NCBI RefSeq assembly: GCF_000472285.1
Contig: NZ_KI421414.1
Coordinates: 28,799 to 92,798, forward strand
Direction: 5' to 3'
DNA from: Desulfuromonas sp. TF
GTDB taxonomy: Bacteria > Desulfobacterota > Desulfuromonadia > Desulfuromonadales > ATBO01
Length of the DNA: 64,000 nt
Shown: one piece after another, positions 15,541 through 33,571 of the stretch
Layout of the letters: each line of letters begins with the position of its first letter
Numbering within the stretch: position 1 is the first letter of the stretch
The notes under the pieces: model-generated
The model's database searches: none
What the model saw: the letters and a program-made list of their open reading frames with translations, nothing else
What the model was told of the DNA's origin: nothing
Translations under genes and position numbers: made by a program

Positions 15541-16813
15541 CTTGATATTGCTGATTTCCGCATTCTTTCTGATCCCTTTTTATCTGATCAGAGGGCTGCG
15601 CCACGGTAAGGTTCGGCGCGGGATTCGGGAGCGGCTCGGCTTCTTTCTTCCGGATCGCCTGGCATTGCTGCGGGGTCGCAAGGTTTTCTGGATTCATGCG
15701 GTTTCTGTCGGCGAGACGAGGGCGGCCATAAGCCTGCTCAAAGGCCTCAGGAAAACGTATCCGGATGCCGCCCTGGTGCTCTCCAACGTGACCGAAACGG
15801 GTCACGCCATCGCGCTGGGGATCAAGGAGGTCGATCTCTGTCTTTTCTTCCCCTTCGATCTTTCGCTGGTGGTGAGAAAGGTTCTGCGTCAGGTGCGACC
15901 CGACTTGATCATCATCGTGGAGACGGAGATCTGGCCCAACTTCGTACGAATCTCCCACGAAGCGGGGATTCCGATTCTTCTGGTCAACGGACGCATTTCC
16001 GACCGCTCCTTTCCCCGCTATCAATTGGCGAAGCCACTGCTGCAACCTCTGCTTCAGAGATTTTCCGCATTCTGCATGCAGACCGATCTGGACGCCGAAC
16101 GTATTCGACTCATGGGCGCCCCTGAAGAAAGAGTGGAAGTCACCCGGAACCTCAAGTTCGACATGCAGACATCGGCTCCCGACCGGACCGCCATTGACAC
16201 CCTGAAGGATCTTTATCGGATTCCCTCCGGGACTACCGTATGGGTGGCGGGGAGCACTCATGCCGGCGAAGAGGAGATCATCATAGAGGTTTACCGGCAC
16301 CTGGTGGCGGAAGGGGAGAATCTTATTCTGATTCTGGTCCCCCGGCATCCTGAAAGATGCCGGGCGGTGGGTGATATGCTGACCACATGCGGGCTCCCTT
16401 ACGTTCTGCGCAGCGAGATCGAATCCAGCCGTAATCCGCTCCGGGCCGGAGAGGTTCTTCTGGGGGATACGCTGGGTGAGATGCTCAAGTTCTATGCCGC
16501 TGCCGATGTGGTTTTCGTTGGCGGCAGCCTGGCGAACATCGGCGGTCACAACATCCTGGAAGCCTGTCTTTTGAAAAAGCCTGTCCTGTTCGGCCCTCAC
16601 ATGCACAACTTCAAGGAAATTTCCCGTCTCGTCGCCGAGGTGAGGGGCGGGATCGGGGTCGCCGATGACAAGGAACTCCTCGGCACTCTCCGGGAGTTGA
16701 TCGGGAACCCTCAAATGCGCTGCACCATGGGCGAGGCCGGATTTGACCTGCTGCAGCGGAACAGCGGCGCTACCGCCCATACCCTTGCCGTGATCAGCCG
16801 CGTTCTGAGATAA
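15488..16813 (+). CDS. waaA: 3-deoxy-D-manno-octulosonic acid transferase (Kdo transferase)
   Basis: Adds Kdo from CMP-Kdo to the lipid A precursor at the inner membrane. GT30 fold: membrane anchor near residues 12-30, then IHAVSVGETRAAISLLKGL with the catalytic acidic residue, IIVETEIWPNF, VAGSTHAGEEEII and VGGSLANIGGHNILEA for CMP-Kdo binding. The ATG at 15488 (MYDVLRPVWRSPVYLLYD) overlaps the previous gene by 53 bases; a longer frame upstream is just the overlap. Number of Kdo residues added cannot be read from sequence. Confidence 0.94.
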   Translation: MYDVLRPVWRSPVYLLYDLILLISAFFLIPFYLIRGLRHGKVRRGIRERLGFFLPDRLALLRGRKVFWIHAVSVGETRAAISLLKGLRKTYPDAALVLSNVTETGHAIALGIKEVDLCLFFPFDLSLVVRKVLRQVRPDLIIIVETEIWPNFVRISHEAGIPILLVNGRISDRSFPRYQLAKPLLQPLLQRFSAFCMQTDLDAERIRLMGAPEERVEVTRNLKFDMQTSAPDRTAIDTLKDLYRIPSGTTVWVAGSTHAGEEEIIIEVYRHLVAEGENLILILVPRHPERCRAVGDMLTTCGLPYVLRSEIESSRNPLRAGEVLLGDTLGEMLKFYAAADVVFVGGSLANIGGHNILEACLLKKPVLFGPHMHNFKEISRLVAEVRGGIGVADDKELLGTLRELIGNPQMRCTMGEAGFDLLQRNSGATAHTLAVISRVLR

Positions 16814-16817
16814 GGCG

Positions 16818-17879
16818 ATGAACCGTGTGACCGCATGGCATCGACGGCTGGTTCTTGAGGGGCCGAAAAGTCCCGGGCAGTGGCTGCTCCAGTCTTTGCT
16901 GCTCCCCCTTGGATGGCTCTACGGCATCATCGCATCTGTCCGCGTGTGGCTCTACCGCCGGGAGGTCCTTTCTTCCTATCGCGCCGGAGTCCCTGTTGTT
17001 TCCGTCGGCAATCTCTCGGTCGGAGGGACAGGCAAGACCCCCATGACGGATCATCTGATCAGGTATTTCCAGAACAGGGGGCGCAAGGTGGCCGTGGTGA
17101 GCCGGGGATACCGTGGGCGCGTGCGGGATGTCGCCGTGGTCAGTGCCGGCGACGATCCCCTCCTGTCTCCGGAGATCTGCGGAGACGAGCCGCTTCTTCT
17201 GGCCCGGCGCAATCCGGGAGCTGTCGTCCTTGCCGCCCCACGCCGCTCCGCCGGAGTCCGTCTGGCTGTGGAGCGCTTCGGCGCCCAGATCGTCATCCTT
17301 GACGATGGATTTCAGCACCTAGCCGTGCAGCGCGATCTCGATATCGTCCTTCTCGATGCCCGTTGTCCTATGGGAAACCACAGAGTTCTGCCGGCGGGCC
17401 TGCTGCGGGAGTTTCCCTCGGCTTTGGAGCGAGGCGACCTGCTGGTGCTCACCCGCAGCCAGGGCGATGAAAAATTCCTTTTTCGGCATGGAAAGCCGCT
17501 AGTCCGCTGTCGCCACGCCTTCGACGCCCTGGCGATCTCTCTGCGCGGTGAGAGCATCCCGCTCATTCATCTGGCCGATAAGAAGGGCGTCGCTTTTGCC
17601 GGTATTGCTGATCCCGAGGGGTTTTTTGCTTCCCTGACATCTGCCGGTCTCAGTCTGGTGAATACCGTTTCGTTTCCTGATCACGCCGCATACAATGAGG
17701 AAACACTCTATCATTTGGAAAAGGTCGCCGGCGAGGCCGATTTTCTGGTGACCACGGAAAAGGACGGTGTTAAACTGGCAAGCGATGCTTTTTCACTCCC
17801 CTGCTATCAAGTATCTCTGAAACTCGATTTTTTTGAACCGGCCGACCTCGAAAGGGCTCTCGATTCACTGATCGAATAA
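16818..17879 (+). CDS. lpxK: Tetraacyldisaccharide 4'-kinase LpxK
   Basis: Phosphorylates the 4' position of the lipid A disaccharide. 353 residues with an N-terminal membrane-associated helix, the P-loop GNLSVGGTGKTPMTDHL, SRGYRGR, GDEPLLLARR and the DDGFQH motif (LDDGFQHLAVQRDLD) that is characteristic of the family. VTTEKDGVKL is the C-terminal conserved block. Starts 5 bases after waaA and so is probably cotranscribed. Confidence 0.95.
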   Translation: MNRVTAWHRRLVLEGPKSPGQWLLQSLLLPLGWLYGIIASVRVWLYRREVLSSYRAGVPVVSVGNLSVGGTGKTPMTDHLIRYFQNRGRKVAVVSRGYRGRVRDVAVVSAGDDPLLSPEICGDEPLLLARRNPGAVVLAAPRRSAGVRLAVERFGAQIVILDDGFQHLAVQRDLDIVLLDARCPMGNHRVLPAGLLREFPSALERGDLLVLTRSQGDEKFLFRHGKPLVRCRHAFDALAISLRGESIPLIHLADKKGVAFAGIADPEGFFASLTSAGLSLVNTVSFPDHAAYNEETLYHLEKVAGEADFLVTTEKDGVKLASDAFSLPCYQVSLKLDFFEPADLERALDSLIE

Positions 17880-17888
17880 GGAAGAAAA

Positions 17889-18071
17889 ATGGCCATATCG
17901 AAAGAACTACTGAGTATTCTGGCTTGTCCCAAGTGCAAAGGGGACATCTATCTGAAAGAGGACGAGGGGAGCATCGTCTGCGACAGCTGTCGTCTGGTCT
18001 ATCCGATCCGTGACGACATCCCGGTGATGCTCATCGATGAGGCGGAAGAATTCCAGGAGGAGAAAGGTTAA
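17889..18071 (+). CDS. Trm112 family zinc-ribbon protein
   Basis: 60 residues. A zinc-binding pair CPKC and CDSC spaced by about 18 residues, then the conserved LVYPIRDDIPVMLIDEAEE segment, mark the Trm112/YcaR family. In enteric bacteria ycaR follows lpxK, as here. The function in bacteria is not settled; eukaryotic Trm112 activates methyltransferases. The last codons and TAA stop lie inside the first heptad of the next repeat array, giving the final residues EKG. Confidence 0.88.
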   Translation: MAISKELLSILACPKCKGDIYLKEDEGSIVCDSCRLVYPIRDDIPVMLIDEAEEFQEEKG

Positions 18072-18134
18072 AGGATAAAGGTTAAAGGAAAACCTTTTAT
18101 CTTGAATCTTGAATCTTGAACCTTTTACCTTTAC
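18063..18134. repeat. Inverted heptad array, AAAGGNN / TCTTGAA family
   Basis: Left arm (18063-18090): four heptads, AAAGGTT, AAAGGAT, AAAGGTT, AAAGGAA. Right arm (18093-18134): six heptads, CCTTTTA, three TCTTGAA, CCTTTTA, CCTTTAC. Arms are separated by only two bases. The left arm contains the stop of the Trm112 gene. The right arm extends to 9 bases before the likely TTG start of waaF. Confidence 0.88.
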
Positions 18135-18142
18135 ATAGAATT

Positions 18143-19174
18143 TTGAAATCCCTCGATTTTTCGAACATAGAACGAATTCTTGTACGCCAGACCAACTGGA
18201 TCGGCGATGCCGTCATGACTACTCCCGCCATGGGAGCGATCCGGGCCACTTTCCCCCGGGCCGAGATCGTGGTGACGGCCAATCCTCTTGTGGCCGAACT
18301 CTTTCGACATCATCCCGATTGCGACCGTGTCGTGGTGTTTGATAAAAAGGGTGCGCACAGAGGAGCCCGAGGGATGCTTCGCTTTGCCGGAGAATTGCGC
18401 CGCGAGAGATTCGACCTGGCAGTGCTGCTGCAGAATGCGGTAGAAGCGGCGGTGATCGCCGTTCTGGCCGGAATTCCGAGGCGGGCAGGATATCGTACCG
18501 ACGGCCGCCGTCTTCTTCTGACTCACGGCGTGACAATGGGCGAGGCGGAGAAACGTCTGCATCATACGGCCTATTATCTTCACATGCTGGAGGCCGTGGG
18601 GATCCGGGGCGGGAAAGGCGCGCTTCGGCTGCGGTGCACCGCGGAAGAATTGGATTGGGCCCGGAAAACGCTGGGGGACGGGGAGTTCGTCGCCATCAAT
18701 CCCGGGGCGGCTTACGGCTCGGCCAAGCGCTGGATCCCGGAGCGTTTCGCTGAAGTCGGCGATTGCCTGGCAAGGGAATACGGAATTCGCGTCGTGCTCA
18801 CCGGTGGTCCCGGAGAGGTGGAAATCGGTCGGGATATCGAGGCGGACATGTCGTCGCGTCCGCTGAACCTTATCGGCCGAACGGGAGTCCGTCAGATGAT
18901 GGCCGTTCTCTCTCTGTGCCGGCTGATGGTCACCAACGATTCCGGCCCGATGCATGTGGCGGCGGCCTTCGGTATCCCCATTGCGGCCATTTTCGGTCCC
19001 ACCGACCATACCACCACCTCTCCCCTGGCTGAAAACTGCCGGATTATCCGCAAGGAGATCGACTGCGCCCCCTGCCTGCTGCGCCAGTGCCCCACCGACC
19101 ACCGGTGCATGGAGGCGGTTTCCGTCGGAGACGTCCTTGCCGGAGCCCGCCAGTTGTTGGGGAGGGAAGGATGA
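18143..19174 (+). CDS. waaF: Lipopolysaccharide heptosyltransferase II
   Basis: Adds the second L-glycero-D-manno-heptose of the inner core from ADP-heptose. GT9 family: N-terminal RQTNWIGDAVMTTPAMGAI, INPGAAYGSAKRWIPERFAEV, and the nucleotide-binding block TNDSGPMHVAAAFGIPIAAIFGPT. The C-terminal cysteines (CAPCLLRQCPTDHRC) are usual. No ATG exists near the expected N terminus; TTG 18143 (LKSLDFSNIERILVRQ) is the best choice, with no clear ribosome site, and the heptad array lies directly upstream. Start uncertain, function well supported. Confidence 0.9.
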   Translation: MKSLDFSNIERILVRQTNWIGDAVMTTPAMGAIRATFPRAEIVVTANPLVAELFRHHPDCDRVVVFDKKGAHRGARGMLRFAGELRRERFDLAVLLQNAVEAAVIAVLAGIPRRAGYRTDGRRLLLTHGVTMGEAEKRLHHTAYYLHMLEAVGIRGGKGALRLRCTAEELDWARKTLGDGEFVAINPGAAYGSAKRWIPERFAEVGDCLAREYGIRVVLTGGPGEVEIGRDIEADMSSRPLNLIGRTGVRQMMAVLSLCRLMVTNDSGPMHVAAAFGIPIAAIFGPTDHTTTSPLAENCRIIRKEIDCAPCLLRQCPTDHRCMEAVSVGDVLAGARQLLGREG

Positions 19175-20226
19175 AGGTACTGATCGTCAAGGTGAGCGCC
19201 CTCGGCGATGTCGTCCATGCGCTGCCGGTGCTCGCCTGGCTCAAGAGCGCCGATCCGGAGATGGAGATCGACTGGCTGATGGAGGAATCCTTCGCGCCGC
19301 TGCTTGATGGGCACCCTCTTATCCGCAAGGTGCACCGACTGCGCACCCGGGCCTGGCGGCTAGATGGACCGGGCGCCGGAATCCGGGGGTCCCTGGAGAT
19401 CGCCGGCCGACTGCGGCGGGAAGCCTACGATGTGGTTCTCGATCTGCAGGGAAACAGCAAGAGCGCCCTGTTTACTCTTTTGACCGGTGCTCCCCATCGT
19501 TTTGGTTTCGACCGGGACGGTGTTCGCGAATGCCCTAACCTGCTGGCCACCAATCGAAAAGTCGCCCTGGGAACGGAAAACCATCACATCACCGATCGTT
19601 CGCTGGCGATTGCCCGGAAGGCATTCCCGGGCGGGACCCAGCCTCCCGCAGCCGGTCCCCTGCCCATCGACGGCAAGGCCCGTTCGGTGATTGAGCAGAT
19701 GCTGAACGAGAGAGGAATGTCCGGGAAGACCCTCGTCGTTCTTCATTACGGCACCACCTGGAAGACGAAGCTGTGGCCTCTCGATCTCTGGTGCGAGCTT
19801 GCCGGCGCGCTGTGCGGTCTCGAAGGGTGCCGGCCCATTCTGACCTGGGGCAGCGAGGAGGAGCGGGTCGCCGTCGCGTCCATCCATGAGGCCTCCGGGG
19901 AGCGGGCGGCGATATGGCCGAGGGGGTCGCTGACGGAACTGGCTGCCCTGCTTGAGCGGGCCGACCTGGTGATCGGAGGAGATACCGGTCCGATCCATAT
20001 CGCGGCCGCAGTGGGCACGCCGACCGTTTCCCTCTTCCGGGTCACCGACGCGGAGCGGAACGGCCCGCAGGGGAAAGACCACATCCGCCTGCAGGCCCCC
20101 CTGGACTGCTCCCCCTGCTTGAAGAAAGCTTGTGAACGGGACGACGAGTGCGGACACAGCATAGACATTGATAGGGTTCTGCGCGCTGCCTTGTCCCTGA
20201 TTGAGGGGCGATCATGCACGAAATGA
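19171..20226 (+). CDS. waaC: Lipopolysaccharide heptosyltransferase I
   Basis: GT9 enzyme that transfers the first heptose to Kdo. 351 residues: N-terminal MKVLIVKVSALGDVVHALPV, acceptor-side DWLMEESFAPLLDGHP, and C-terminal GGDTGPIHIAAAVGTPTVSLF for ADP-heptose. Cysteines in DCSPCLKKACERDDEC resemble the WaaF neighbour. Start ATG 19171 follows GGGGAGGGAAGG and overlaps the waaF stop by 4 bases. I assign WaaC by the N-terminal pattern and pairing with waaF; a further heptosyltransferase role is possible. Confidence 0.85.
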   Translation: MKVLIVKVSALGDVVHALPVLAWLKSADPEMEIDWLMEESFAPLLDGHPLIRKVHRLRTRAWRLDGPGAGIRGSLEIAGRLRREAYDVVLDLQGNSKSALFTLLTGAPHRFGFDRDGVRECPNLLATNRKVALGTENHHITDRSLAIARKAFPGGTQPPAAGPLPIDGKARSVIEQMLNERGMSGKTLVVLHYGTTWKTKLWPLDLWCELAGALCGLEGCRPILTWGSEEERVAVASIHEASGERAAIWPRGSLTELAALLERADLVIGGDTGPIHIAAAVGTPTVSLFRVTDAERNGPQGKDHIRLQAPLDCSPCLKKACERDDECGHSIDIDRVLRAALSLIEGRSCTK

Positions 20227-21053
20227 TCGAGAAGGGGGGAATGGTGGTTGCGGCCGATGCTTATCCCCTCCTGCAGAAAGCCGGGCTTACCAGCTTCGAT
20301 GCCTTCATGGAATTTACCGGCGGGACCCGGATCTGTCATAAGCGGGGGCGTTCGGTTTATCGATTCGAGCTCGACGGTCGCGCATTCTACCTGAAACGGA
20401 ATCGTCTTCAGCGTGTCGAGTTCCTCAAGCGTCTGAGCCGCTTCAAGCTGCCAGCCCGCGGAGCTTGGGAAGAATGGGAAAGCATCCGACTTGTCCGGGA
20501 GACGGGATTGCCGACGATCACGCCGATCGCATATGGTGAAAGGCGGGCCCTGAACCTGGAAATAGGCTCCTTCACTCTGACCGAAGAACTCTACGGGGCA
20601 GAGCCGCTCGATGCCTTTATTGAGCGCGAGTGGTCCGCAGCTCCTCGCAGCTCGAAGCGTGGAGAGAAGCGAAAGGTTATATGTGATCTTGCCCGGTTGG
20701 CGCGGCGTTTCCACGACCGAGGGATGAATCACCAGGATTTTTACCTTAACCATTTTTTTATTGACGAGACGGGGAATCTTTATCTGCTTGACTTGCAGCG
20801 CGTTCAACACCGGCCGGAAGTGCCGATACGATTTGTGGTGAAGGACCTCGGTCAGTTGTTTTATTCGAGTCTCCGTTTCCCCTGCATCAGCAAGAGCGAT
20901 AAGATGTTTTTTCTGCTTAATTATCTTGGCCAGAGACAGTTGGATCGAAAGGGCAAGTCGCTGGCCAGAAAAATTCTGACCAAGAACGCCCGGATCGCTC
21001 GCCACGATGTGAAACTGCATGCCCGGCGACGCAAACGAGGAGAACTGCGGTAA
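20214..21053 (+). CDS. waaP: Lipopolysaccharide core heptose kinase (WaaP/RfaP family)
   Basis: Phosphorylates heptose in the inner core, which strengthens divalent-cation bridging of the outer membrane. 279 residues with a protein-kinase-like fold: YLKRNRLQR (candidate ATP lysine), WEEWESIRLVRETGLPTITPIAYGE, the catalytic loop GMNHQDFYLNHFFID and metal-binding LYLLDLQRVQHRP, then KDLGQLFYSS, all matching WaaP spacing. GAGGGG about 6 bases before ATG 20214; the start overlaps waaC by 13 bases. Confidence 0.88.
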   Translation: MHEMIEKGGMVVAADAYPLLQKAGLTSFDAFMEFTGGTRICHKRGRSVYRFELDGRAFYLKRNRLQRVEFLKRLSRFKLPARGAWEEWESIRLVRETGLPTITPIAYGERRALNLEIGSFTLTEELYGAEPLDAFIEREWSAAPRSSKRGEKRKVICDLARLARRFHDRGMNHQDFYLNHFFIDETGNLYLLDLQRVQHRPEVPIRFVVKDLGQLFYSSLRFPCISKSDKMFFLLNYLGQRQLDRKGKSLARKILTKNARIARHDVKLHARRRKRGELR

Positions 21054-21055
21054 GT

Positions 21056-21919
21056 ATGGAGAATGCAACAAATAAAGATGTATATGCAGGCATGAGAGAG
21101 AACGATTGGTCGCACATCAGGCTTGCCTATGTGATTTACTTTTATTTCGACCAGGAAAACTCGACCTCTCTTACCGAGCTTTTGCGTGAGTACGCCACCT
21201 ATCCCAGGGAGGTCATCGATCATGTACATTTCACCATTGTCGACGACGGTTCTCCTGTTAAAGTCGAGATCCCCGAAGACATCAATCTGAACATTCTATA
21301 CCTGCGTATAGATGAGAATATTCAGTGGAATCAGGGCGGGGCTAGAAACCTGGGGGTTGTTATGGCCAGGGCCGACAAGGTATTTGCCACCGACCTCGAC
21401 CATAAACTGCCTGAGCAGACTCTGAGGGAACTCGTGACCCGGAAAAATCCCGGCCGCACGTTTTACAAGTTCAAGCGTCTGAACGAAAAGGGAGAAGACA
21501 TTGGTTACCATCTGAATACCCTTTTTTTCTCCCGGGCCCGTTTCTTTCGTTTTCACGCTTTGGATGAGCAGTTCTGCGGGCATTACGGCTACGAAGACGC
21601 TCTTTTCTGGAGATGGCAACGATACCACGGGACGAGATTTCTCTACCTTCCGGGCAGGCATCACTGTGTTCATCGCAGCAGCCTTGATCTGAAAAAATCC
21701 TACCATTCGCTGGAACGCGATCTGTCCCGGAACAGGACCATCGCGGAAAGGACCAGGAAGGCCTGGAAGACGTATGGCCCGCAGGCGGGACATAGCCGGC
21801 AGTTTCTCTGCTTTCCCTGGCATGTCATAGAAGAAAGGGCCCGCCGAACCACCCTTCCGTCTTTGAAAACCGCCCGGTCCTGGGCCCGGACCTGGTGGTG
21901 GCGCTGGTTGTTCGGATGA
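21056..21919 (+). CDS. Glycosyltransferase family 2-like protein, LPS core
   Basis: 287 residues. GT-A features: TIVDDGSPV near residue 62, the nucleotide-binding NQGGARNLGVVMARA, and a DxD-like TDLDH for the metal. The C-terminal part is basic (KTARSWARTWWWRWLFG), suggesting membrane association. Sits between a WaaP kinase and a WaaG-like gene, so an inner- or outer-core sugar transfer is likely; donor and acceptor are unknown. Three bases separate it from waaP and it overlaps the next gene by 4. Confidence 0.75.
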   Translation: MENATNKDVYAGMRENDWSHIRLAYVIYFYFDQENSTSLTELLREYATYPREVIDHVHFTIVDDGSPVKVEIPEDINLNILYLRIDENIQWNQGGARNLGVVMARADKVFATDLDHKLPEQTLRELVTRKNPGRTFYKFKRLNEKGEDIGYHLNTLFFSRARFFRFHALDEQFCGHYGYEDALFWRWQRYHGTRFLYLPGRHHCVHRSSLDLKKSYHSLERDLSRNRTIAERTRKAWKTYGPQAGHSRQFLCFPWHVIEERARRTTLPSLKTARSWARTWWWRWLFG

Positions 21920-23097: not shown

Positions 23098-24035
23098 TGG
23101 CGAAATTTCTGGTAACCGGAGGGGCCGGATTTATCGGCTCCCACATCGTCGATGAACTCCTTCGGCGGGGCGAGACCGTCCGCGTGCTGGACAATATGGC
23201 GACGGGAAAACGGGAGAACCTGGAACACTGTCTCGAACGGATCGACTTCATCGAAGGCGACATCCGCGACATGGAGATATGCCGGAGGGCATGCGCCGAT
23301 GTGGATTTCGTGCTGCATCAGGCCGCCCTGGGGAGCGTGCCCCGCTCCATGGAAGATCCCCTGACAAGCCACGATGTCAACGTCACCGGCACGCTCAAGA
23401 TGCTCATCGCGGCTCGGGACGAAGGGGTGAAGAGGTTCGTCTATGCCGCCTCTTCCTCGACCTACGGCGATCATCCCGCTCTGCCCAAGGTCGAGGATCG
23501 CATCGGCAACCCCCTCTCGCCCTATGCCGTGACCAAATACGCCGACGAACTCTATGCCCGGGTGTTCGGACGCTGTTACGGCCTGGAGACGGTGGGACTG
23601 CGCTACTTCAACGTCTTCGGCCCACGCCAGGATCCCTTTTCCCAATACGCCGCGGTGATCCCCCTTTTCGTCAGCGCCCTGCTGCGGGGGGAGGCGCCGA
23701 CCATCAACGGCGACGGGGAGCAGACCAGGGATTTCACCTACGTGGGGAACGCCGTGGAGGCCAACCTGCTGGCCTGCGCTGCCCCGGCCGAGGCGGTGGG
23801 GGAGGTGTTCAACGTCGCCTGCAATGAGCGAACCTCCCTGAATCGTCTTTACCGCCGACTGCAGGATCTGCTTGGCTCCACCATCGAGCCGGCGTACGGG
23901 CCTCCCCGGGCCGGAGATGTGCGCGACAGCCTGGCGGACATCGGCAAGGGAGAACGCCTGCTGGGGTACAAAGGGGAAATCAAGTTCGATAAGGGACTGC
24001 GACGTTCCATCGAATGGTATCGGGATAATCTGTGA
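23097..24035 (+). CDS. wbpP: NAD-dependent epimerase, WbpP/TviC-like UDP-GlcNAc 4-epimerase
   Basis: Interconverts UDP-GlcNAc and UDP-GalNAc (or the uronic acids). 312 residues: NAD-binding VTGGAGFIGSHIVDELL, HQAALGSVPRSMEDP, SSSTYGDHPALPKVED and catalytic SPYAVTKYADE (Tyr, Lys). These blocks match WbpP of Pseudomonas and TviC more closely than GalE. Located in the core cluster, it may supply GalNAc for the core or, with the TviB-like enzyme at 33778, GalNAcA. ATG overlaps the previous TAA by one base. Confidence 0.78.
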   Translation: MAKFLVTGGAGFIGSHIVDELLRRGETVRVLDNMATGKRENLEHCLERIDFIEGDIRDMEICRRACADVDFVLHQAALGSVPRSMEDPLTSHDVNVTGTLKMLIAARDEGVKRFVYAASSSTYGDHPALPKVEDRIGNPLSPYAVTKYADELYARVFGRCYGLETVGLRYFNVFGPRQDPFSQYAAVIPLFVSALLRGEAPTINGDGEQTRDFTYVGNAVEANLLACAAPAEAVGEVFNVACNERTSLNRLYRRLQDLLGSTIEPAYGPPRAGDVRDSLADIGKGERLLGYKGEIKFDKGLRRSIEWYRDNL

Positions 24036-24052
24036 TTGGAGGAGAAAAAATA

Positions 24053-24895
24053 GTGACTGATCCTATCTGTATAGATACGAACTGCGACATATGTGGCAGC
24101 TGGGATTCTAAAGAACTCCTGAAAGCAAAAGGATCTGCATACCATGAATGTAGTTCATGCGGAATGATTTTTGCTAAACCAATGCCTGAAAATTTTTTTG
24201 AGATCAATGAGGAGCAATTTTTGAAGAGGCTAGATCTTTATTCCAAAAAGATCGAATCGAAACGAAAAAGGAACCGGAATAAACTAGCAAAGTTTGAGAG
24301 CTTCCGGCAAACCGGCAATTTTCTGGAGATTGGCTGTAATGCCGGTGCGGTGTTGGTTGCCGCCCGTGACATAGGCTGGCAGGTTAAAGGTGTAGACACT
24401 TCCACGGCTGCCGCCGCGTTTGCCAGGGAGAAAATGAATTTGGATGTCTTTACGGGAAATGTAGAGGAAGCGGGTTTTCCAAACGACTTTTTCGATGTTG
24501 TTTTTACCAATGCCACTCTTGAACATCTCCGCCACCCTCTTTCGACCATGAAGGAGTGTTTGAGAATTTTACGTCCCGGCGGGATCTTTTATGCCGATAC
24601 AGTCAATGGGGATAGTTACACAAGGCACCTGTTAGGCGCTGATTGGAAGCTTATAAATCCTTACAGCCATCTGCATCTGTACACTCCTACCAACATCCTC
24701 TCGTTATGCCGCTTCGCGGGATTCGATCATTATAAGACCTGGACCACCGGATCCAGGGTCACGGCCAATGCTCCCGGATCATCCTTCAAAACTCCATGGC
24801 ATTGGCACCTTCTAAAGGGCCCTTTGTCTTTTCTTGCCCGTTTGAACAACAAGGGTGACAGTATCGAATTTATGGCGCGGAAGCCCTTGATCTGA
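24053..24895 (+). CDS. Class I SAM-dependent methyltransferase with N-terminal zinc ribbon
   Basis: About 280 residues. N-terminal zinc knuckle CDICG and CSSCG (residues 8-38) typical of methyltransferases in sugar clusters, then the SAM fold: FLEIGCNAGAVLVAA (motif I), VDTSTAAAAFA, FDVVFTNATLEHL (motif II/post-II), LRPGGIFY (motif III). The GTG at 24053 has GGAGGAG 8 bases upstream and is preferred to GTG 24032, which lies inside the epimerase gene. The gene is noticeably more AT-rich than its neighbours, suggesting separate acquisition. Target sugar unknown. Confidence 0.75.
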   Translation: MTDPICIDTNCDICGSWDSKELLKAKGSAYHECSSCGMIFAKPMPENFFEINEEQFLKRLDLYSKKIESKRKRNRNKLAKFESFRQTGNFLEIGCNAGAVLVAARDIGWQVKGVDTSTAAAAFAREKMNLDVFTGNVEEAGFPNDFFDVVFTNATLEHLRHPLSTMKECLRILRPGGIFYADTVNGDSYTRHLLGADWKLINPYSHLHLYTPTNILSLCRFAGFDHYKTWTTGSRVTANAPGSSFKTPWHWHLLKGPLSFLARLNNKGDSIEFMARKPLI

Positions 24896-25971: not shown

Positions 25972-26007
25972 GGCGGCGCGTAACAATAATACTTATGGGT
26001 GGTTATG

Positions 26008-26733
26008 ATGAAAAAACTCTATTATCGAATGCTGAAGGGCCGTCATTTTGCCCAGGGGCTTAGTCAACTGCGCCAACTCGAGAAGAAGCTCTTTTCTCGC
26101 GAGTCAAGGTTTGCCATACCTTTTGCCTATCGGGGCAAGGGGTTCTATAAGACCATCGAACCGCGGCAGAACCCGCTGGAGATCGAGGAGCTCTACCGCG
26201 CCGTCTGCGGATTGGCGCCGCAGCGGGTGCTCGAGGTCGGCACGGCGCGCGGCGGCACTCTCTACCTCTGGGCCCAGGCGACTATTGATGGGGCCACTAT
26301 TGTCAGCGTCGACTTGCCGGAGGGTGATTTCGGCGGCGCCTATCCTGAAGAGAAGGTCCCCTTCTATCAGGCTTTCGCCCGCCCGGGCCAGAGACTGCAT
26401 TTGCTACGCAAGGACAGCCATGACCCGAAGACGGTGGCCGAGGTGCGACAGCTATTCGCCGCCTCGCCAGTCGACTTCGCTTTTATCGACGGCGATCATA
26501 CCTATGAGGGAGTAAAGGCCGACTTTTTCGATTACGGGCCACTGGTCCGTCCCGGTGGACTGATCGCCTTTCACGATATCCTGCCTCGCCCTGACATGCC
26601 TTCTATCCAGGTCGACCGCTTTTGGCAAGAACTCAAGTCGACCCATCGCACCCGAGATATAATCGGCGCCGATGCCTCAGGGCGCAAGATCGGCATCGGT
26701 CTGCTCTATGTCGAAGAGGGCGGGATTCGTTGA
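26008..26733 (+). CDS. Class I SAM-dependent methyltransferase (Methyltransf_24-like)
   Basis: About 241 residues. VLEVGTARGGTLYLWAQ is the SAM-binding motif I, TIVSVDLPEGDFGG motif II, and VDFAFIDGDHTYEGVKADF the acidic metal/SAM block; RPGGLIAFHDI follows. The same architecture occurs in CmcI-like and polysaccharide O-methyltransferases. ATG 26008 sits 5 bases after GGGTGG; ATG 26005 is equally possible. Second methyltransferase in this core block, so the LPS core may carry methyl groups. Confidence 0.72.
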   Translation: MKKLYYRMLKGRHFAQGLSQLRQLEKKLFSRESRFAIPFAYRGKGFYKTIEPRQNPLEIEELYRAVCGLAPQRVLEVGTARGGTLYLWAQATIDGATIVSVDLPEGDFGGAYPEEKVPFYQAFARPGQRLHLLRKDSHDPKTVAEVRQLFAASPVDFAFIDGDHTYEGVKADFFDYGPLVRPGGLIAFHDILPRPDMPSIQVDRFWQELKSTHRTRDIIGADASGRKIGIGLLYVEEGGIR

Positions 26734-26779: not shown

Positions 26780-28288
26780 ATGACGAAAATTTCCTTTAAG
26801 GATATCCGATGGGATTACCTCTCCGAGGAGGGGAGTGCCTGGCTTAATGATCGACACGACGGCGCCAGGATCGAGGAGACGGTCAAGGAATCTTCCAAAC
26901 GCAGGGTTGTCTATTTGCAGGGGATTTATCTCAAGGAGGTGCGCTACAGCGGCATCGCCGTTCTTCTCAAAGGCATTAGCGGCGGAACCGCCTGTAAAGA
27001 GGGGCGGATTTCCCGAAAACTCGCCGAGCGTGGGATCTCCGTTCCCCAGGTCATCGGATACGGGAAGGCGGTCAATAACGGACTGGTCCGGAGGGACGTC
27101 CTTCTGACCCGGGAGGTTGCGGGTGGAAAAAGTCTTTTCGATTTTCTCCATCGGGAATTCCCCCAACTTGCCGCTGGCGAAAAACGGAAATTTGTCCGGG
27201 GGTTCGCCGCGTATGTCCGGAAACTCCACGATGCCGGAGCCCTGCATGCCGATCTGCACATCGGCAATATCCTGCTGGAACCCGAAGGGAGCGAATATCG
27301 CTTCGTTCTTCTCGACAACGACCGTCTCACCCTGAAAAATGGCAAGATTTCGACTCGCCAGAGGATAAGGAACCTGGCGCTGGTTCTTTCCAACCTACGG
27401 AACCACCTGAGCCGGACCCAGTATCTCCGGTTTCTCCGCGAGTATGGTTTGCCCTCCGGCGAGGAGGGACGGGTCCTCCTGTCGGCTCTGGAAAATAGCG
27501 TGCTTGCGCATTCGAAGAAAATCTGGAACGGAAAAGCTCGCCAATGTCTCTCAAACAACCGCCGGTTCAGCAAGGAGCACCGGCAGGGTTTCACGATCTA
27601 CAGGAAAAGCGGACTTCGCTGGAAGAATCTTGTTGATGCCCTCCTCCCCGACCCGGACCTGATGCTGGAACAGGGAGAGATTTTCAAGGCGGGTCGCACC
27701 GTGAGAGCTGCCAGGATCACCATCGACGGACAGAGCTATTTTCTCAAGCGCTACAACTGCAAAGGATTCATTTACCGGTTGCGAAATGCCTTTCGGCGGT
27801 CGCGTGCGGTAAGGACGTGGCTGGTCAGTTGGGGATTTCGCGTCAGAGGAATACCGATTCCTGAACCGATCGCGTGTATCGAAGAGCGACGTTGGCGTCT
27901 GTTGGGACGTTCTTATATTCTTTCCGTCTTCGTTTCGGAGTCCGAATCTCTACCTCATTTCTGGTCCGGAATAGATGCAGGTAGACAAAAAGAGCTTCTG
28001 GGAAAACTGGCAGGCTTGCTGGGACGCATGCACCGCTTCGGGTGTTTGCATGGAGATCTCAAGTGGAATAACATCCTCGTTTCCCGATCCGGGCGGATCG
28101 TCCTGACCGATCTGGACGGCAGTCGCATCCTCAGCCGCTTGGGGTCCAAAAGTGCAAGGCGGGATCTGCGCCGTTTCCAGCGCGATCTCGCAAGCAGGCA
28201 GATCGCTGCCGCGGAGAGGGATTTCTTTCTCGCCTGCTGGCGGCGTTGGGCCTCGCCCCCGGAGCCGGGAGTGCGGACAAGGGTTTAG
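26780..28288 (+). CDS. Two-domain lipopolysaccharide kinase fusion
   Basis: 502 residues containing two protein-kinase-like (WaaP/KdkA-type) domains in tandem. Domain 1 (about 1-290): catalytic loop GALHADLHIGNILLE (His156 region) and LLDNDRL, with Asn in place of the usual middle residue. Domain 2 (about 300-502): SYFLKRYNC, GCLHGDLKWNNILV (His424 region) and VLTDLDGSRIL. Both keep a catalytic Asp and a metal-binding Asn, so both may be active. Probable targets are Kdo or heptose in the core. Start ATG 26780; the frame is open into the previous gene. Lies 46 bases after the methyltransferase. Confidence 0.8.
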   Translation: MTKISFKDIRWDYLSEEGSAWLNDRHDGARIEETVKESSKRRVVYLQGIYLKEVRYSGIAVLLKGISGGTACKEGRISRKLAERGISVPQVIGYGKAVNNGLVRRDVLLTREVAGGKSLFDFLHREFPQLAAGEKRKFVRGFAAYVRKLHDAGALHADLHIGNILLEPEGSEYRFVLLDNDRLTLKNGKISTRQRIRNLALVLSNLRNHLSRTQYLRFLREYGLPSGEEGRVLLSALENSVLAHSKKIWNGKARQCLSNNRRFSKEHRQGFTIYRKSGLRWKNLVDALLPDPDLMLEQGEIFKAGRTVRAARITIDGQSYFLKRYNCKGFIYRLRNAFRRSRAVRTWLVSWGFRVRGIPIPEPIACIEERRWRLLGRSYILSVFVSESESLPHFWSGIDAGRQKELLGKLAGLLGRMHRFGCLHGDLKWNNILVSRSGRIVLTDLDGSRILSRLGSKSARRDLRRFQRDLASRQIAAAERDFFLACWRRWASPPEPGVRTRV

Positions 28289-28303: not shown

Positions 28304-29827
28304 ATGGAAAATTGGAAGCGATGGCCGGATGACCGTCGGGGGCTTTACCTGCTTCTGTTCATCTCCTTGCTGCTCAAGGGGATCATGGTTGCCTGCTCCG
28401 ACGTAGTCAACGACGACGGAACTCTTTATATAAGCGCCGCGCAGGAATTTGCAAAAGGGAATTTCAGGGAAGGGCTGTCCATCTACCCCATGCCCTTTTA
28501 TTCCCTTCTGATCGTGGTTTCGCACTGGGTCATACCACAATGGGTTCTTGCCGGCCAGACGATTTCCTTTCTCGCCCTGGGTCTCGCGGTCATCCCGCTT
28601 TACATGACGATTCGCCTTCTCTTCGGGCCGGCTGAGGCCTTCTGGGGAGGAATGGTCTTTGTGGTCGCTCCCTGGTTCAACGATCTTGCCACGGATGTCG
28701 TTCGTGATCCCGCTTTCCTCTTCTTCTTCTCGTGGGCGCTTTATTTCGGCGTATGCGCCGTTACCCAAAGCAGAACAAGGGATTACATCTTTGCCTCGAT
28801 ATTTTCCATTTCGGCCTTCCTGTGCCGGATTGAAGCCGTCGTGTTTCCGTTGGCCTTCCTGGTTGTCCTCGTTATCCTTTTGGTTTGGGACCGAAAAGAG
28901 AGAATGACCCGTTTGAAGGGAATCGGCCTTTTCCTTTCGGTTCCGGCGATTCTATTCCTTATCTTCCAGTTAGCTGCCGACACGCAGGTTTTTTCCTTTA
29001 ACCGCATCAGCGAGATTGCCAAGTATTTTGAAGGTTTTCTTCATCTCAACTTTCTCGATAGTTATCGGACTATCTATGAACAGATGAAGGATTTGGAACA
29101 GACCATGCCGGGTTGGTCGCTGAGTCGAAGCTTCTCTGAAATTACCCGCTACAATCTCTGGTTGATCTATCTGCTCGGACTGTTTCAAGGTATTTTCAAG
29201 ATCCTCTTTCCGTACATGGTCATACCCTTTGTGGCAGGGTTTGCCGGCAGGTGCGGATTGAATCGAGGGCATGTTTTCCTGTTGGCCCTCAGCGCCGCAT
29301 ATGTGGTGGCATGTTATATCTATCATGTGAAGATGAATTTCATCGATACGCGGTATCTCATTGTGCCCGCCATACTTTTCCTTCCCTGGATCGGAGTCGG
29401 AATCGCCAGGTTTTTCGATCGGGCTCACAATACTGCTCGTCCCCGGATTGCCGTGCTGTCCCTGCTTCTCATTTTTGTCCTGGTCCCCTTCGTTAAATCC
29501 GTGGATGTGACATGGAGAGAAGAAGACGATGCGGTCAAGCAAGCAGGCCTTTGGCTGGACCGCCAGCCGGAATCTGATGCTATTTCCATGATCTGCACAG
29601 ACAGGCGTATACCCTTTTATTCCGGGCGCGGAGTAAATTACCTTCATTTCGATGGAAAAGATTACCGGGAGATGGAGCAGATTGCCGTAAAGGATAAAAT
29701 CGACCTGCTGGTCATCGAGGATTCAAAAAAGAGATTGCCCGAGCCCCTGGCCTTCGAATATTACGAAATATGGAAAATGATTGAGAGCCCCAAAAATATC
29801 GCCTTCATCTATCGGAAGAAATCATGA
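28304..29827 (+). CDS. GT-C family membrane glycosyltransferase (ArnT/PMT-like)
   Basis: 507 residues with about 10-12 hydrophobic segments from residue 13 to 400 and a soluble C-terminal domain. The first loop holds [18 protein letters not shown], with the acidic pair expected of dolichol/undecaprenyl-phosphate-sugar transferases, and [15 protein letters not shown]. This group transfers a sugar from a lipid-linked donor at the periplasmic side, so it could modify lipid A or core. It is not a WaaL-type ligase by pattern. AGGAGGG 10 bases before ATG. Overlaps gmhA by 4 bases. Confidence 0.78.
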
Positions 29828-30417
29828 ACGGAATTGAAGAAATCGAAATCCAGCTTCAGCGTCACATCGAGACCATTCGGTTGGTGGCGGAGTCCATGGC
29901 TCCGACTATCGAGCGTTGCTGCACCCTGTTGGTGTCCGCCTTGAAAAGGGGGAACCAACTTCTGATCATGGGCAACGGAGGGTCGGCCGCCGACGCTCAG
30001 CACATGGCGGCGGAATTCGTGGGGCGTTTCCTGCTGGAGCGGAAAGCCCTGCCAGCCGTTGCACTGACCACCGATACTTCGATCCTGACCGCGGTCGGGA
30101 ACGATTACGGCTTCGACGAAATTTTCAAGCGGCAGGTGGAAGCTCTTGCCCGGCCTGGAGATGTGGTGATCGGTATTTCCACAAGCGGACATTCGAACAA
30201 CGTTTTCCACGCCCTCACCGCCGCCAATGAGATGGGGTGCAGCACCATCGGTCTTCTCGGCCGGGAGGGGGGGAACATCGCCGGAATCGTCGATGTGAAC
30301 CTGACGGTGCCGGTTCAGGAGACGCCTAGAATCCAGGAGGCCCACCTGACCATCATCCACATCATTTGCGATCTGGTGGAACGGAACCTCTTTGGCGGAA
30401 GAAAAGATGATGAATAA
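29824..30417 (+). CDS. gmhA: Sedoheptulose-7-phosphate isomerase
   Basis: First step of ADP-heptose synthesis: converts sedoheptulose 7-phosphate to D-glycero-D-manno-heptose 7-phosphate. 197 residues, SIS domain: [22 protein letters not shown] and [14 protein letters not shown] bind phosphate; [20 protein letters not shown] and [15 protein letters not shown] carry active-site residues. The ATG overlaps the preceding TGA. The following genes hldE and gmhB complete the pathway, interrupted by one uncharacterised gene. Confidence 0.96.
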
Positions 30418-31378
30418 GGAAAAGAACCCCTACAAACCCATAGACCTTTCTGGAATCAAAACCTATTCCATCAAAACCCGTGACAATAAGGTCAACATCT
30501 CAGAGCATTTCGCTGTTGCTCCGACGGACGGGATGTCCTTCCTGGATTTCTACGAACGCCTCCCACGGCTCCTCGGCGCCGACAGCCTGAGGGGAGTGGT
30601 CGATGCCGTCGTGAATGCCCGCGAAAAGGGGAGGCCGGTAATCCTGGCGATGGGAGGGCATGTCATCAAGTGCGGTCTGCAGCCGGTTCTGAAGGCTTTG
30701 ATCGAGGCCGACGTGGTTACCGCGGTGGCCATGAACGGTTCCGCCTCCATCCATGACTTCGAGGTCTCGCTGGTCGGCGCCACCTCTGAGGATGTGGGCG
30801 CAGTGCTGCATTCGGGGGATTTCGGTTTCTCGGAGGAGACGGGGGGGGGAATGAACCGAGCGCTCAGAGAGGGTCTGGAGCAGGGAATCGGATTCGGCGA
30901 GGCGATCGGCCGGCGAATCATCGATAATGACCATCTTCACAAAGAGTACAGTCTGCTGTCCGCCTGCGTGGAGAAGGGCATTCCCGTCACCGTGCACGTG
31001 GCCATCGGCACCGACATCATCCACCAACACCCTGAATTCGACGGCGGGGTCACGGGAGAGATGACGGCAAGGGATTTCCGACTGCTGACCTCCGTGGTGG
31101 CCGACTTGGGGGACGGCGGCGTATGGCTAAACGTCGGCTCGGCGGTGCTTCTGCCGGAGGTTTTCCTGAAAGCCCTTTCCATCGCGCAGAATCTGGGACA
31201 TCATGTCGATGGATTCACCACTGCCAACTTCGACATGATCCAGCACTACCGACCCCTCCAGAACGTGGTCAAACGACCGACATCAGGGAGCGGCCGGGGA
31301 TACACCATCACCGGTCACCACGAGATCAATATCCCGCTCTTTGCGGCGGCTGTGCTTGAAAAAACAGGTAAAAGGTGA
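30407..31378 (+). CDS. Conserved protein of unknown function in the heptose operon
   Basis: About 323 residues, not assigned to a family I can name securely. It is soluble, with glycine-rich segments [55 protein letters not shown] and a C-terminal [16 protein letters not shown]. These look like nucleotide- or phosphate-binding loops of a Rossmann-type fold; a distant link to deoxyhypusine-synthase-like proteins is possible but unproven. It overlaps gmhA by 11 bases and precedes hldE, so a part in heptose supply is plausible. ATG 30407 or 30410. The final GKR and stop lie within a heptad array. Confidence 0.7.
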
Positions 31379-31500
31379 AAGGTTAAAGGAAAAAAGGAGG
31401 GGAGAATGGAATTTGAGAATCTAGATGTTTGGTAACGAGGAAGCGACGTTTTGCATGCGCCTCTAAACCTTGAACCTTTAACCTTTTACCTTGAACCTGG
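31367..31500. mobile_element. Heptad-array element (GGTNAAA family) enclosing a relic four-helix-bundle gene start
   Basis: Left arm 31367-31394: GGTAAAA, GGTGAAA, GGTTAAA, GGAAAAA. Right arm 31466-31500: five heptads of the AACCTTN type, the reverse complement. The left arm contains the stop of the preceding gene and the right arm ends 5 bases before the preferred hldE start. Unlike the other intergenic arrays it has about 70 inner bases that begin with a ribosome site (GGAGGGG) and an ATG (31406) encoding MEFENLDVW followed by a stop, see the separate entry. Confidence 0.75.
31406..31465 (+). pseudogene. Relic of a four-helix-bundle (S23-like) protein gene
   Basis: ATG 31406, preceded by GGAGGGGAGA, encodes MEFENLDVW, then TAA, then RGSDVLHAPL in the same frame before the right heptad arm. 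The pattern F-E-x-L-x-V-[YW] is how proteins of the four-helix-bundle/S23 family start; the intact gene at 40507 reads SFEDLQVYQLAERL. The stop (TAA where Lys or Gln is usual) and loss of the remaining 100 residues mark it as an internally deleted copy. Short, so the match could be chance. Confidence 0.55.
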
Positions 31501-31505
31501 ATATT

Positions 31506-32990
31506 ATGGACCGTCAACTCGTTGAACGTTTTCTGAGCCGTATCAGGCAGATCAGGGCCCTGGTGATCGGCGATCTGATGCTGGACGAATACCTCTGGGG
31601 GAAGACCGAAAGAATTTCCCCGGAGGCGCCCGTGCAGGTGGTGGATATATCCCGGGAGGACCTGCGGCTCGGCGGCGCGGGGAACGTGATCAACAACCTG
31701 ATGACGCTGGGGTGCCAGGTCCATGTCGCCGGCGTTCTCGGCGATGATGCCGACGGCAGACTGCTGCGCCGCCTGCTGGAGGAAAAATCCGTCGGCATTC
31801 AAGGGGTTCTCATGTCTCCCGATCGAACCACCAGCCGTAAGACACGCATCCTGGCCAGCAACCAGCAGATGCTGCGGATAGACCGGGAGAGCCAGAATCC
31901 AATTTCCCCGGAGATGGAAGCCCGGCTGGCCGATCATGTGCGGAGAGTGGCGGAGGATTTCCAGGTGATCCTGGTTTCCGACTATCTCAAAGGGGTCCTT
32001 ACTGAAGGGCTCCTGAAGGAAATCGTCGCCATTGGTCGGGAGAAGGGGATCCCCGTGGTGATCGATCCCAAGGGGAGCGACTTCCGCAAATATCGCGGAG
32101 CGACCCTTCTGACCCCGAACCGGAAGGAGGCGCAGACCGCTTCGCACATCGCCATCGTCGATGAAGCCAGTCTGCTCCAGGCCGGACGATTCCTGGCCGA
32201 GGCACTCGATCTCGAAGCGCTGGTTCTGACCCGCAGCGAGGAAGGGATGACCCTGTTCCCTCGTGATGGCGAGGAAATTCATCTGCCGACCGAGGCCCGG
32301 GAAGTCTACGATGTTTCCGGGGCAGGCGACACCGTTCTGGCCATGATGGGCCTGGGGCTGGCCGGGGAGCTTTCCCTGGAGGAGGCGGCCCGGCTCGCCA
32401 ACGTGGCTGCGGGGATCGTGGTGGGCAAGGTGGGGACCTCCACCGTTTCTCACGGAGAGATCCTGGAGGTGATCGGGCGCCGGCACCAGGATACGGACCT
32501 GAAAATAAAGGATCGGGAAGTTTTGGCCGGTATTCTGGAAATGGAACGGGAAAAGGGCAGAACTGTCGTGTTCACTAACGGCTGCTTCGACCTGCTTCAC
32601 GTCGGGCATGTCAAATATCTGCAGAAAGCCCGCCGGCTCGGGGATCTGCTGGTGCTCGGGCTCAACTCCGACGAGTCCATCCGTCGCCTGAAAGGACCCA
32701 GACGTCCCCTGATCAATCAGGATGAAAGAGCCCATATCCTGGCAGCCCTGGACTGCATAGACTACCTGGTGGTCTTCGACGAGGATACGCCGCTTGAGCT
32801 GATCGAAGCCCTGAGGCCGAAAATCCTGGTCAAAGGCGGAGACTACTCTCCCGAAGGGGTGGTCGGCAAGGATCTTGTCGAGAGCTACGGCGGCCGGGTG
32901 GAGCTCATCCAGTTCGTCGACGGCAAATCCACCACCAACATCATCGAAAAAATTCTGCAGCACTACGGTGAAGAAGGCGGCCTGCCTTGA
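31506..32990 (+). CDS. hldE: Bifunctional heptose-7-phosphate kinase / heptose-1-phosphate adenylyltransferase
   Basis: Two activities of ADP-heptose synthesis in one chain of 494 residues. Residues 1-320 are a PfkB/ribokinase domain (LGGAGNVINNLMTLG; YDVSGAGDTVLAMMGLGLA with the catalytic Asp). Residues 345-494 are a nucleotidyltransferase (VVFTNGCFDLLHVGHVKYL with the HxGH motif). ATG 31506 (MDRQLVERFLSRI) is preferred over TTG 31491, which lies in the heptad array. Neither has a clear ribosome site. Stop overlaps gmhB. Confidence 0.96.
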   Translation: MDRQLVERFLSRIRQIRALVIGDLMLDEYLWGKTERISPEAPVQVVDISREDLRLGGAGNVINNLMTLGCQVHVAGVLGDDADGRLLRRLLEEKSVGIQGVLMSPDRTTSRKTRILASNQQMLRIDRESQNPISPEMEARLADHVRRVAEDFQVILVSDYLKGVLTEGLLKEIVAIGREKGIPVVIDPKGSDFRKYRGATLLTPNRKEAQTASHIAIVDEASLLQAGRFLAEALDLEALVLTRSEEGMTLFPRDGEEIHLPTEAREVYDVSGAGDTVLAMMGLGLAGELSLEEAARLANVAAGIVVGKVGTSTVSHGEILEVIGRRHQDTDLKIKDREVLAGILEMEREKGRTVVFTNGCFDLLHVGHVKYLQKARRLGDLLVLGLNSDESIRRLKGPRRPLINQDERAHILAALDCIDYLVVFDEDTPLELIEALRPKILVKGGDYSPEGVVGKDLVESYGGRVELIQFVDGKSTTNIIEKILQHYGEEGGLP

Positions 32991-33571
32991 TTCCCTCAGC
33001 GAAGCGTCGAGCGGTCTTCCTCGACCGCGACGGCACCATCAATGAGGAGAAGGACTACCTCCACCGCATCGAGGATTTCGTGTTCATCCCCGGGGCCGCA
33101 GAGGCGATCCGTCGCCTGAAGGAGGCCGGTTTTCTGGTTATTGTGGTCACCAACCAGTCCGGCGTGGCAAGGGGGTACTACACTCTGGAGGAGGTGGCCA
33201 TCCTCCACCGGCACATGCAGAGGGTATTGGAAACCGTCGGCGCCGCAGTCGACGGTATTTACGTTTGCCCCCATCATCCCGTCGAGGGGGTCGGAGAGTA
33301 TCGACGGGAGTGCGACTGCCGTAAAGGGCGTCCGGGAATGCTGCTGCGGGCTGCACGGGAGCATGGGATCGATCTTTCCCGATCCTATATGATCGGGGAC
33401 AAGATAGCCGATGTTGAAGCCGGTGAAGTGGCCGGATGCCTTCCGCTCATGGTCCTGACGGGATACGGAAAAACGGAGTCGGCAAAAATATCTTCCGACC
33501 GGGTTCGGCGTTTCGCCGATCTCGTGGATGCGGCGGATTTCATCCTTGCCCGAAACCCGGCGCAGAAGTGA
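32987..33571 (+). CDS. gmhB: D-glycero-D-manno-heptose 1,7-bisphosphate 7-phosphatase
   Basis: Removes the 7-phosphate between the two HldE steps. HAD superfamily, 194 residues: FLDRDGTINEE holds the nucleophile Asp and acid/base Asp, VVTNQSGVARGYY motif II, and MIGDKIADVEAG motif IV. The zinc site CPHHP...CDCRKG is present. Start is TTG 32987 overlapping the hldE TGA, with AAGGCGG about 6 bases upstream. Closes the heptose group; the next gene is 207 bases away. Confidence 0.95.
   Translation: MIPSAKRRAVFLDRDGTINEEKDYLHRIEDFVFIPGAAEAIRRLKEAGFLVIVVTNQSGVARGYYTLEEVAILHRHMQRVLETVGAAVDGIYVCPHHPVEGVGEYRRECDCRKGRPGMLLRAAREHGIDLSRSYMIGDKIADVEAGEVAGCLPLMVLTGYGKTESAKISSDRVRRFADLVDAADFILARNPAQK

Follow-up and report, generated by a model that had tools for sequence, protein, structure and literature searches.

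The Locus and Its Gene Content

The stretch of DNA analyzed here (the window, 64,000 nucleotides of the Desulfuromonas sp. TF genome) carries a lipopolysaccharide (LPS) core cluster in which one open frame encodes two kinase-like domains. The main features of the cluster are the following:

15404-20226, + strand: Kdo transferase (waaA), lpxK and two GT9 heptosyltransferases, upstream (GT9 and Kdo transferase from profile searches)
20214-21053, + strand: separate single-domain WaaP-like kinase with the loop HQDFYLNH (PF06293 87 bits; RfaP model 149 bits, cut-off 170)
26780-28288, + strand: didomain LPS-core-type kinase, 502 aa (open frame; PF06293; AlphaFold2 model)
28304-33571, + strand: PMT_2-type transferase, gmhA, GSU2086-family gene, hldE and gmhB, downstream (profile searches)

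The gene row thus runs from the Kdo transferase through the two GT9 genes, the WaaP-like kinase and glycosyltransferases to the didomain gene, followed by the PMT_2-type transferase, gmhA, the GSU2086-family gene, hldE and gmhB. The labels waaF, waaC, lpxK, lpxB and msbA within the cluster are putative names. Two methyltransferase genes (24032-24895 and 25999-26733) lie just upstream of the didomain gene, whose frame is open for 502 codons plus a stop; the open frame itself begins at 26672 (538 aa), and homologues start near 26780, past the stop of the upstream gene at 26733. Across the whole genome (4.40 Mb, 17 contigs) PF06293 has three matches at E up to 0.01, namely the WaaP-like gene and the two fused halves, with no further match at that threshold and no KdkA above its curated cut-off. 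A reading made earlier from the sequence alone had held that separate WaaP-type kinases are usual. That is correct, and here such a gene exists alongside the fused protein.

Two neighbors in the cluster deserve mention in their own right. The gene at 30398-31378, between gmhA and hldE, encodes a member of the GSU2086 family (NF052581, 421 bits) for which Pfam gives no match at E 1e-5, and this gene recurs next to heptose genes in relatives. At 21056-21919, directly after the WaaP-like kinase, lies a gene that no model of Pfam (at E 1e-5) or of NCBIfam (at E 0.001) matches; Pelobacter sp. UBA6093 has a conserved counterpart of it (518 bits).

Two Kinase Domains in One Chain

Within the didomain gene the following features can be assigned (lineages are described in the next section, and a row is one aligned protein or domain):

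26780-27565, + strand: N-terminal kinase domain, residues 1-262, WaaP-like (PF06293 72 bits; WaaP 6dfl_A Z 18.6; RfaP model 57 bits)
26933-26935, + strand: N domain beta3 Lys52 (invariant in 7/7 aligned proteins and in 10/10 intact lineage A rows)
26999-27001, + strand: N domain helix-C Glu74 (invariant in 17/17 aligned proteins)
27236-27268, + strand: N domain catalytic loop GALHADLHIGN, residues 153-163 (D158, N163; frame translation and alignments)
27308-27322, + strand: N domain metal motif LLDND (D179; alignments)
27566-28285, + strand: C-terminal kinase domain, residues 263-502 (PF06293 52 bits; domain-alone model pLDDT 91.1)
27746-27748, + strand: C domain beta3 Lys323 (47/47 two-domain rows)
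27815-27817, + strand: C domain helix-C Glu position, here Thr346 (S/T/V/A in 47/47 two-domain rows)
28040-28072, + strand: C domain catalytic loop GCLHGDLKWNN, residues 421-431 (D426, K428, N431; frame translation and alignments)
28103-28117, + strand: C domain metal motif LTDLD (D444; alignments)

The two catalytic loops that had been noticed in the 502-residue chain are both in frame, and PF06293 recognizes two stretches of the protein (120 bits for the whole, cut-off 21.3), each half scoring far above chance when searched alone. The halves are also homologous to one another (BLASTP E 2e-8, 27% identity over 156 columns). An AlphaFold2 model of the whole protein, computed from an input alignment of seven sequences, has a mean pLDDT of 88.2 and a pTM of 0.82, and both modeled halves match kinase structures. 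The Lys, Asp, Asn/His and Asp residues of kinases are present in both halves, while the helix-C Glu is found in the N half only. The histidine that replaces the catalytic-loop Asn in WaaP is absent, the window protein having N163 and N431. A supposed difference between the metal motifs (LDND versus TDLD) turned out to be a slip of register: LLDND and LTDLD align as xxDxD, and D179 pairs with D444, both of which are invariant in the 7-protein and 17-protein alignments.

Judged from its sequence and model, the N half is WaaP-like. WaaP (6dfl_A) aligns with it at Z 18.6 (model residues 10-246, 223 of 241 WaaP residues aligned), and the model places three helices after the activation segment; the structural alignment with WaaP covers chain 1-259. 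These helices are a candidate counterpart of the sub-domain that holds acyl-ACP in WaaP (PMC6147952). The C half appears to be a separate subfamily of the Kdo/WaaP family. Modeled alone, it matches PRPK (Z 19.9) and WaaP (Z 19.1) equally well, and an early profile hint that it was a WaaY was not supported once separate profiles were compared. Both halves fall short of the curated cut-offs of the named kinase models, scoring 57 (N), 22 (C) and 75 bits (whole) with RfaP (NF011703, cut-off 170 bits) and 51 (N), 55 (C) and 103 bits (whole) with KdkA (NF002475, cut-off 142 bits).

A missing helix-C Glu is a sign of inactivity in many kinases. In the C half this position is Ser, Thr, Val or Ala in 47/47 two-domain rows, while Lys323, Asp426, Asn431 and Asp444 are kept in every one of them (13/13 in lineage A, 27/27 in B and 7/7 in C). 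Both the five KdkA rows (5/5) and E. coli WaaP, when aligned to the C half, have Glu there. Two kinase groups also lack this residue (PMC1821047). The C heads would be a group of kinases that apparently work despite its absence. We considered Glu368 in strand beta4 as a stand-in, since it is kept in 47/47 two-domain C rows and missing in 5/5 KdkA rows, and dropped it because E. coli WaaP likewise has a Glu in that column yet keeps its helix-C Glu. Seven single-domain kinases from Bacteroidaceae records (L012-L017) also lack the helix-C Glu (Ala in 7/7).

Homologues and Lineages of the Fusion

A scan of public genomes found two-domain homologues on six other contigs (L003-L008), and the six that were aligned are 34-53% identical to the window protein. 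Within the class, some match was found in 95/277 genomes, two-domain and single-domain kinases being pooled in this count. At the phylum level 110 genomes matched and 30 loci were examined, one being the window itself and two repeating L007 and L008; two domains are present in 28 of the 30. Weak phylum matches in frames of ~540-600 aa that covered only model positions ~130-440 were excluded from the didomain count. Their length and span make these frames putative UbiB-type kinases. That a sequencing or assembly error joined two genes, the one outcome named beforehand as fatal to the fusion, has practically no chance of being right: single-domain C-type genes do occur in relatives, but the same fusion is present in the 10 N-intact lineage A rows, related didomain lineages exist in other genomes, and the junction (residues ~240-300) is conserved at 31-38% mean pairwise identity among seven proteins. 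Because the homologues are independent and their junction is conserved, the error is excluded and the fusion is real.

Domain profiles and trees divide the didomain proteins of the phylum into three lineages: A, to which the window protein belongs, B (~480 aa) and C (~545 aa). The tree of N, C and KdkA domains was built from 78 of 147 domains plus five KdkA rows; two further ones, L087 (identical with the gene L033_609) and the partial L090, were left out of the tree and of the helix-C comparison. For this set and for the residue counts we omitted duplicate loci (L020, L022, L023, L028, L035, L048, L049, L050, L052, L053, L054), a fragment (L011), a spurious locus (L018) and domains of <=30 bits or spanning <130 model positions, which took out N relics and the truncated C piece of L047. 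Lineages A and B share one clade of C halves (100/95), which together with lineage C makes up a larger one of 33 rows (97/93). N halves as a single clade were not recovered: those of lineage B are one clade, and those of A and C do not resolve. Since the N halves lack one clade, a single fusion event is not established, while the C halves of the three lineages do form a clade. The N half of one lineage C protein (L079, loop HxDFYxCH) groups with a WaaP row (98/89); therefore a WaaP domain was joined there to such a C domain.

The C half keeps its catalytic residues throughout, and the N half varies by lineage. Lys52, Glu74, His156, Asp158, His160, Asn163 and Asp179 are all kept in 10/13 two-domain lineage A rows, and Asp158, Asn163 and Asp179 are lost in the other three (L024_2433, L026, L027). 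In lineage B, where the N-half Lys column is misaligned and was left out of the counts, Asp158 is kept in 27/28 rows and Asn163 and Asp179 in 28/28; Gln replaces His156 in 26/28, and the one exception at the catalytic Asp has Asn (L070). Lineage C keeps Asp158 in 6/7, Asn163 in 5/7 (His in two) and Asp179 in 6/7, one row (L077) having lost its N-half catalytic residues. The suggestion that one of the two domains is regulatory is unlikely to hold for the window protein, both halves of which keep their catalytic residues, but may hold for some relatives, the N half being a pseudokinase in 3/13 lineage A rows.

Several architectures stand apart from this scheme. One contig carries an open chain of at least 1162 aa (L072:1-3489, + strand) in the order GT1-type glycosyltransferase, two kinase domains and GT9 heptosyltransferase (GT1-kinase-kinase-GT9), and in another a didomain kinase runs into a GT2 glycosyltransferase domain (L005:5998-8445, + strand, 816 aa). 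Among eight single-domain rows in lineage B loci the catalytic Asp is Cys in L038_602, L042_503 and L046_2853 and Ser in L040_763 and L041_2001; these five may, from their sequences, be pseudokinases.

Decay of the N-Terminal Half in Relatives

Nineteen genomes of the class, the window's included, have a lineage A C-type domain, and we read stretches around it in the other 18 (in two stretches for G157), with G007 added as a lineage B example. The N half is intact in six (G000, G118, G115, G120, G006 and G099, the last on a 6.6-kb contig), all of which (6/6) have a WaaP-type gene within the stretch read. In whole-genome searches with the C-type profile the fused C domain of these six scores 310-343 bits and the next match <=68 bits, so that none of the six has a second C-type domain. 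In the other 13/19 genomes the N half is a pseudo-domain, truncated or absent. Eight of these 13 (G105, G157, G125, G112, G113, G117, G011, G075) carry two kinds of C-type domain, C1 and C2, with two C2 and three C-type domains in all in G112; a further two (G001, G116) have a KdkA above the curated cut-off. In the remaining three (G123, G151, G121) the C-type gene sits on short contigs of 3.4, 6.4 and 8.2 kb. No KdkA above cut-off was found in these three, in the six N-intact genomes or in the eight with C1 and C2. The association of C1 plus C2 with the state of the N half gives a Fisher p of 0.018 and that of KdkA a p of 0.058, which is not significant; both ignore kinship. One apparent KdkA-GmhB fusion was seen by eye in G116 (L086, contig 35), where the KdkA frame continues into an apparent GmhB start near the contig edge.

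In a tree of C domains, from which those of <135 bits and those of G007 were omitted, C1 comprises 11 rows (96/92), all with HGDLKW as in the 10 intact rows, and C2 another 11 (99/97), all with HGD[TSL]NW. The two are sister clades within a joint clade of 22 rows (88/94), although the bootstrap is not fully settled. Because C1 and C2 form this one clade, loss of the N half together with gain of C2 was possibly a single event, and the pattern as a whole may reflect few events. Remnants of the N half persist on C1 copies (40, 86 and 96 bits in G112, G113 and G117), and C2 copies carry them too (103 bits in G112, 29 bits in G105). This fits a history in which the didomain gene was duplicated in tandem as a whole, after which both N halves decayed and the catalytic loop of C2 changed.

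Relatives without the N half often carry another kinase gene that may stand in for it. The replacement is not exactly one for one. Not counting a domain that lies in a 741-800 aa frame, PF06293 has three matches in 11/19 genomes (G000, G118, G115, G120, G105, G117, G011, G125, G075, G116, G151); the others have between two and five. The N-intact G006 has extra single-domain matches in frames of 254 and 269 aa, two genes at contig 55, 40447-41862, ~11 kb from its intact didomain gene, and the N-intact G099 has extra matches in frames of 316 and 600 aa. Two WaaP-type genes each are found in G112 and G113, and another kinase with an HGDLxWRNIL loop in G157 and G151. The total number of kinase sites per genome is therefore not fixed.

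Proposed Function and Alternatives

Taken together, these observations make it reasonably probable that the protein is a bifunctional LPS inner-core kinase, with a WaaP-like N half that most likely phosphorylates a heptose and a C half of another subfamily that would act on a second inner-core hydroxyl. The earlier view of two LPS-kinase-type domains fused in one chain is borne out, the gene sitting in an LPS core cluster and two reactions being likely. We favor two activities because 10/10 N-intact lineage A rows retain the catalytic residues in both halves, and the LPS core as substrate because Kdo and heptose transferase genes lie in the cluster together with genes for ADP-heptose synthesis. 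The WaaP-type N half joined to such a C half in L079 and the glycosyltransferases added to the chains of L005 and L072 also speak for this reading. That the N half is an enzyme draws its main support from the relatives, since the N-intact genomes have no second C-type domain and most of the N-lost ones have either two C-type genes (8/13) or KdkA (2/13). Against the bifunctional reading stand the missing helix-C Glu of the C domain and the failure of either half to reach the RfaP or KdkA cut-off.

We infer the activity of both halves, the substrate, the sugars and the site of action as follows. Both halves would bind ATP and metal with the residues expected of a working ATP-dependent sugar kinase. 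The separate WaaP-like kinase of the cluster presumably makes the first heptose phosphate, after which the fused protein would add two phosphates to the inner core, the N half probably on a heptose and the C half on a second hydroxyl, of the second heptose or Kdo. This would take place at the cytosolic face, before export. With the separate kinase and two fused heads, the cluster would therefore place three core phosphates.

A broader scheme, which we offer tentatively as one possible account, is that an undescribed two-headed class of LPS core kinases with exchangeable heads exists in Desulfuromonadales and relatives. The gene would have been duplicated in tandem, both N heads would have decayed, and a second C head, changed from HGDLKW to HGDxNW, would have taken over the acceptor of the N head, the C head being an active lineage without the helix-C glutamate.

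One half could instead be a Kdo kinase in place of KdkA, the other being a heptose kinase, which we regard as unlikely. The genome lacks a KdkA above cut-off, as do the 6/6 N-intact and 8/8 C1-plus-C2 genomes, whereas G001 and G116 have one. The C half also fits the KdkA model better than RfaP (55 versus 22 bits). However, KdkA is also absent from G123, G151 and G121, and in G001 its gene directly adjoins the C1 gene, so C1 does not replace KdkA there, which speaks against C1 as a Kdo kinase. KdkA, moreover, has a beta3 Arg and a helix-C Glu where the C half has Lys and no Glu, and forms a clade of its own (100/100) apart from the C halves.

It is rather unlikely that the C half is the sole enzyme and the N half a scaffold or regulator binding ACP, the membrane or a partner. 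Such a division of labor would suit the uniform retention of C-half catalytic residues (47/47) beside their loss from the N half in 3/13 lineage A rows, in 1/7 of lineage C (L077) and, as Asn for Asp, in 1/28 of lineage B (L070), and it would suit the modeled N-half helices, over which WaaP aligns with the sub-domain that holds acyl-ACP (PMC6147952). Yet K52, E74, D158, N163 and D179 are all kept in the window protein and nine other lineage A rows, and in 10/13 genomes a dead or lost N half is accompanied by another C-type gene or by KdkA, which a pure scaffold would not need.

That the pair acts on another glycan of the locus, such as an O-chain cap in the manner of the kinase-methyltransferase WbdD, and not on the inner core is distinctly improbable. 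The two methyltransferase genes just upstream and the appearance of WbdD (4ax8) at rank 46 in the Foldseek search (E 1.2e-5) would agree with it, but WaaP is the closest solved relative in that search, and neither methyltransferase is the best label of any frame in 19 related loci (several of them short), where waaP, GT4 and PMT-type genes recur. Wider stretches give one weak MT1 match only (70 bits, G011).

Phosphates on the core contribute to the cohesion of the outer membrane. If the bifunctional reading is true, one two-headed protein would couple two core phosphorylation steps, and the heads lost in nature, with their possible replacements, offer a direct route to assigning a phosphate to each head. 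WaaP and WapP are both essential kinases in P. aeruginosa (PMC6147952).

Comparison With Known LPS Kinases

The heptose(I) kinase WaaP/RfaP (6dfl) resembles the protein in fold, catalytic residues and its setting in an LPS core cluster, and the N half aligns with nearly its whole chain. Unlike the fused protein, WaaP is single-domain, and its H168 (PMC6147952) takes the place of the canonical Asn, which the N half keeps as Asn163; WaaP-type rows of our own alignment show an HxDxYxxH loop, and the N half scores under the RfaP cut-off. The Kdo kinase KdkA shares the Pfam family and an SRxxRxW-like motif of helix C, but differs in the beta3 and helix-C residues and in tree position (five rows) noted above. 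Likeness to the heptose(II) kinase WaaY/RfaY is weak: E. coli WaaY scores 33 bits with the C profile and 6/17 didomain proteins match the RfaY model, but of the two E. coli kinases WaaP gives C-type profiles a better match than WaaY does, so that no special kinship is shown.

The family and the fold are known, while the fused architecture and the decay pattern are undescribed in the open-licence literature searched. No two-domain LPS kinase is described in the portions of that literature available, including PMC8005017, PMC8707732, PMC6147952, PMC1821047, PMC4702295, PMC9138534 and PMC1262709. A candidate relative is P. aeruginosa PA5006, a putative LPS kinase of at least 493 aa encoded beside waaP, wapP and wapQ in the core operon (PMC8707732, PMC8005017). 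As a guess from its length, PA5006 may have two kinase domains, in which case it would be the nearest studied case.
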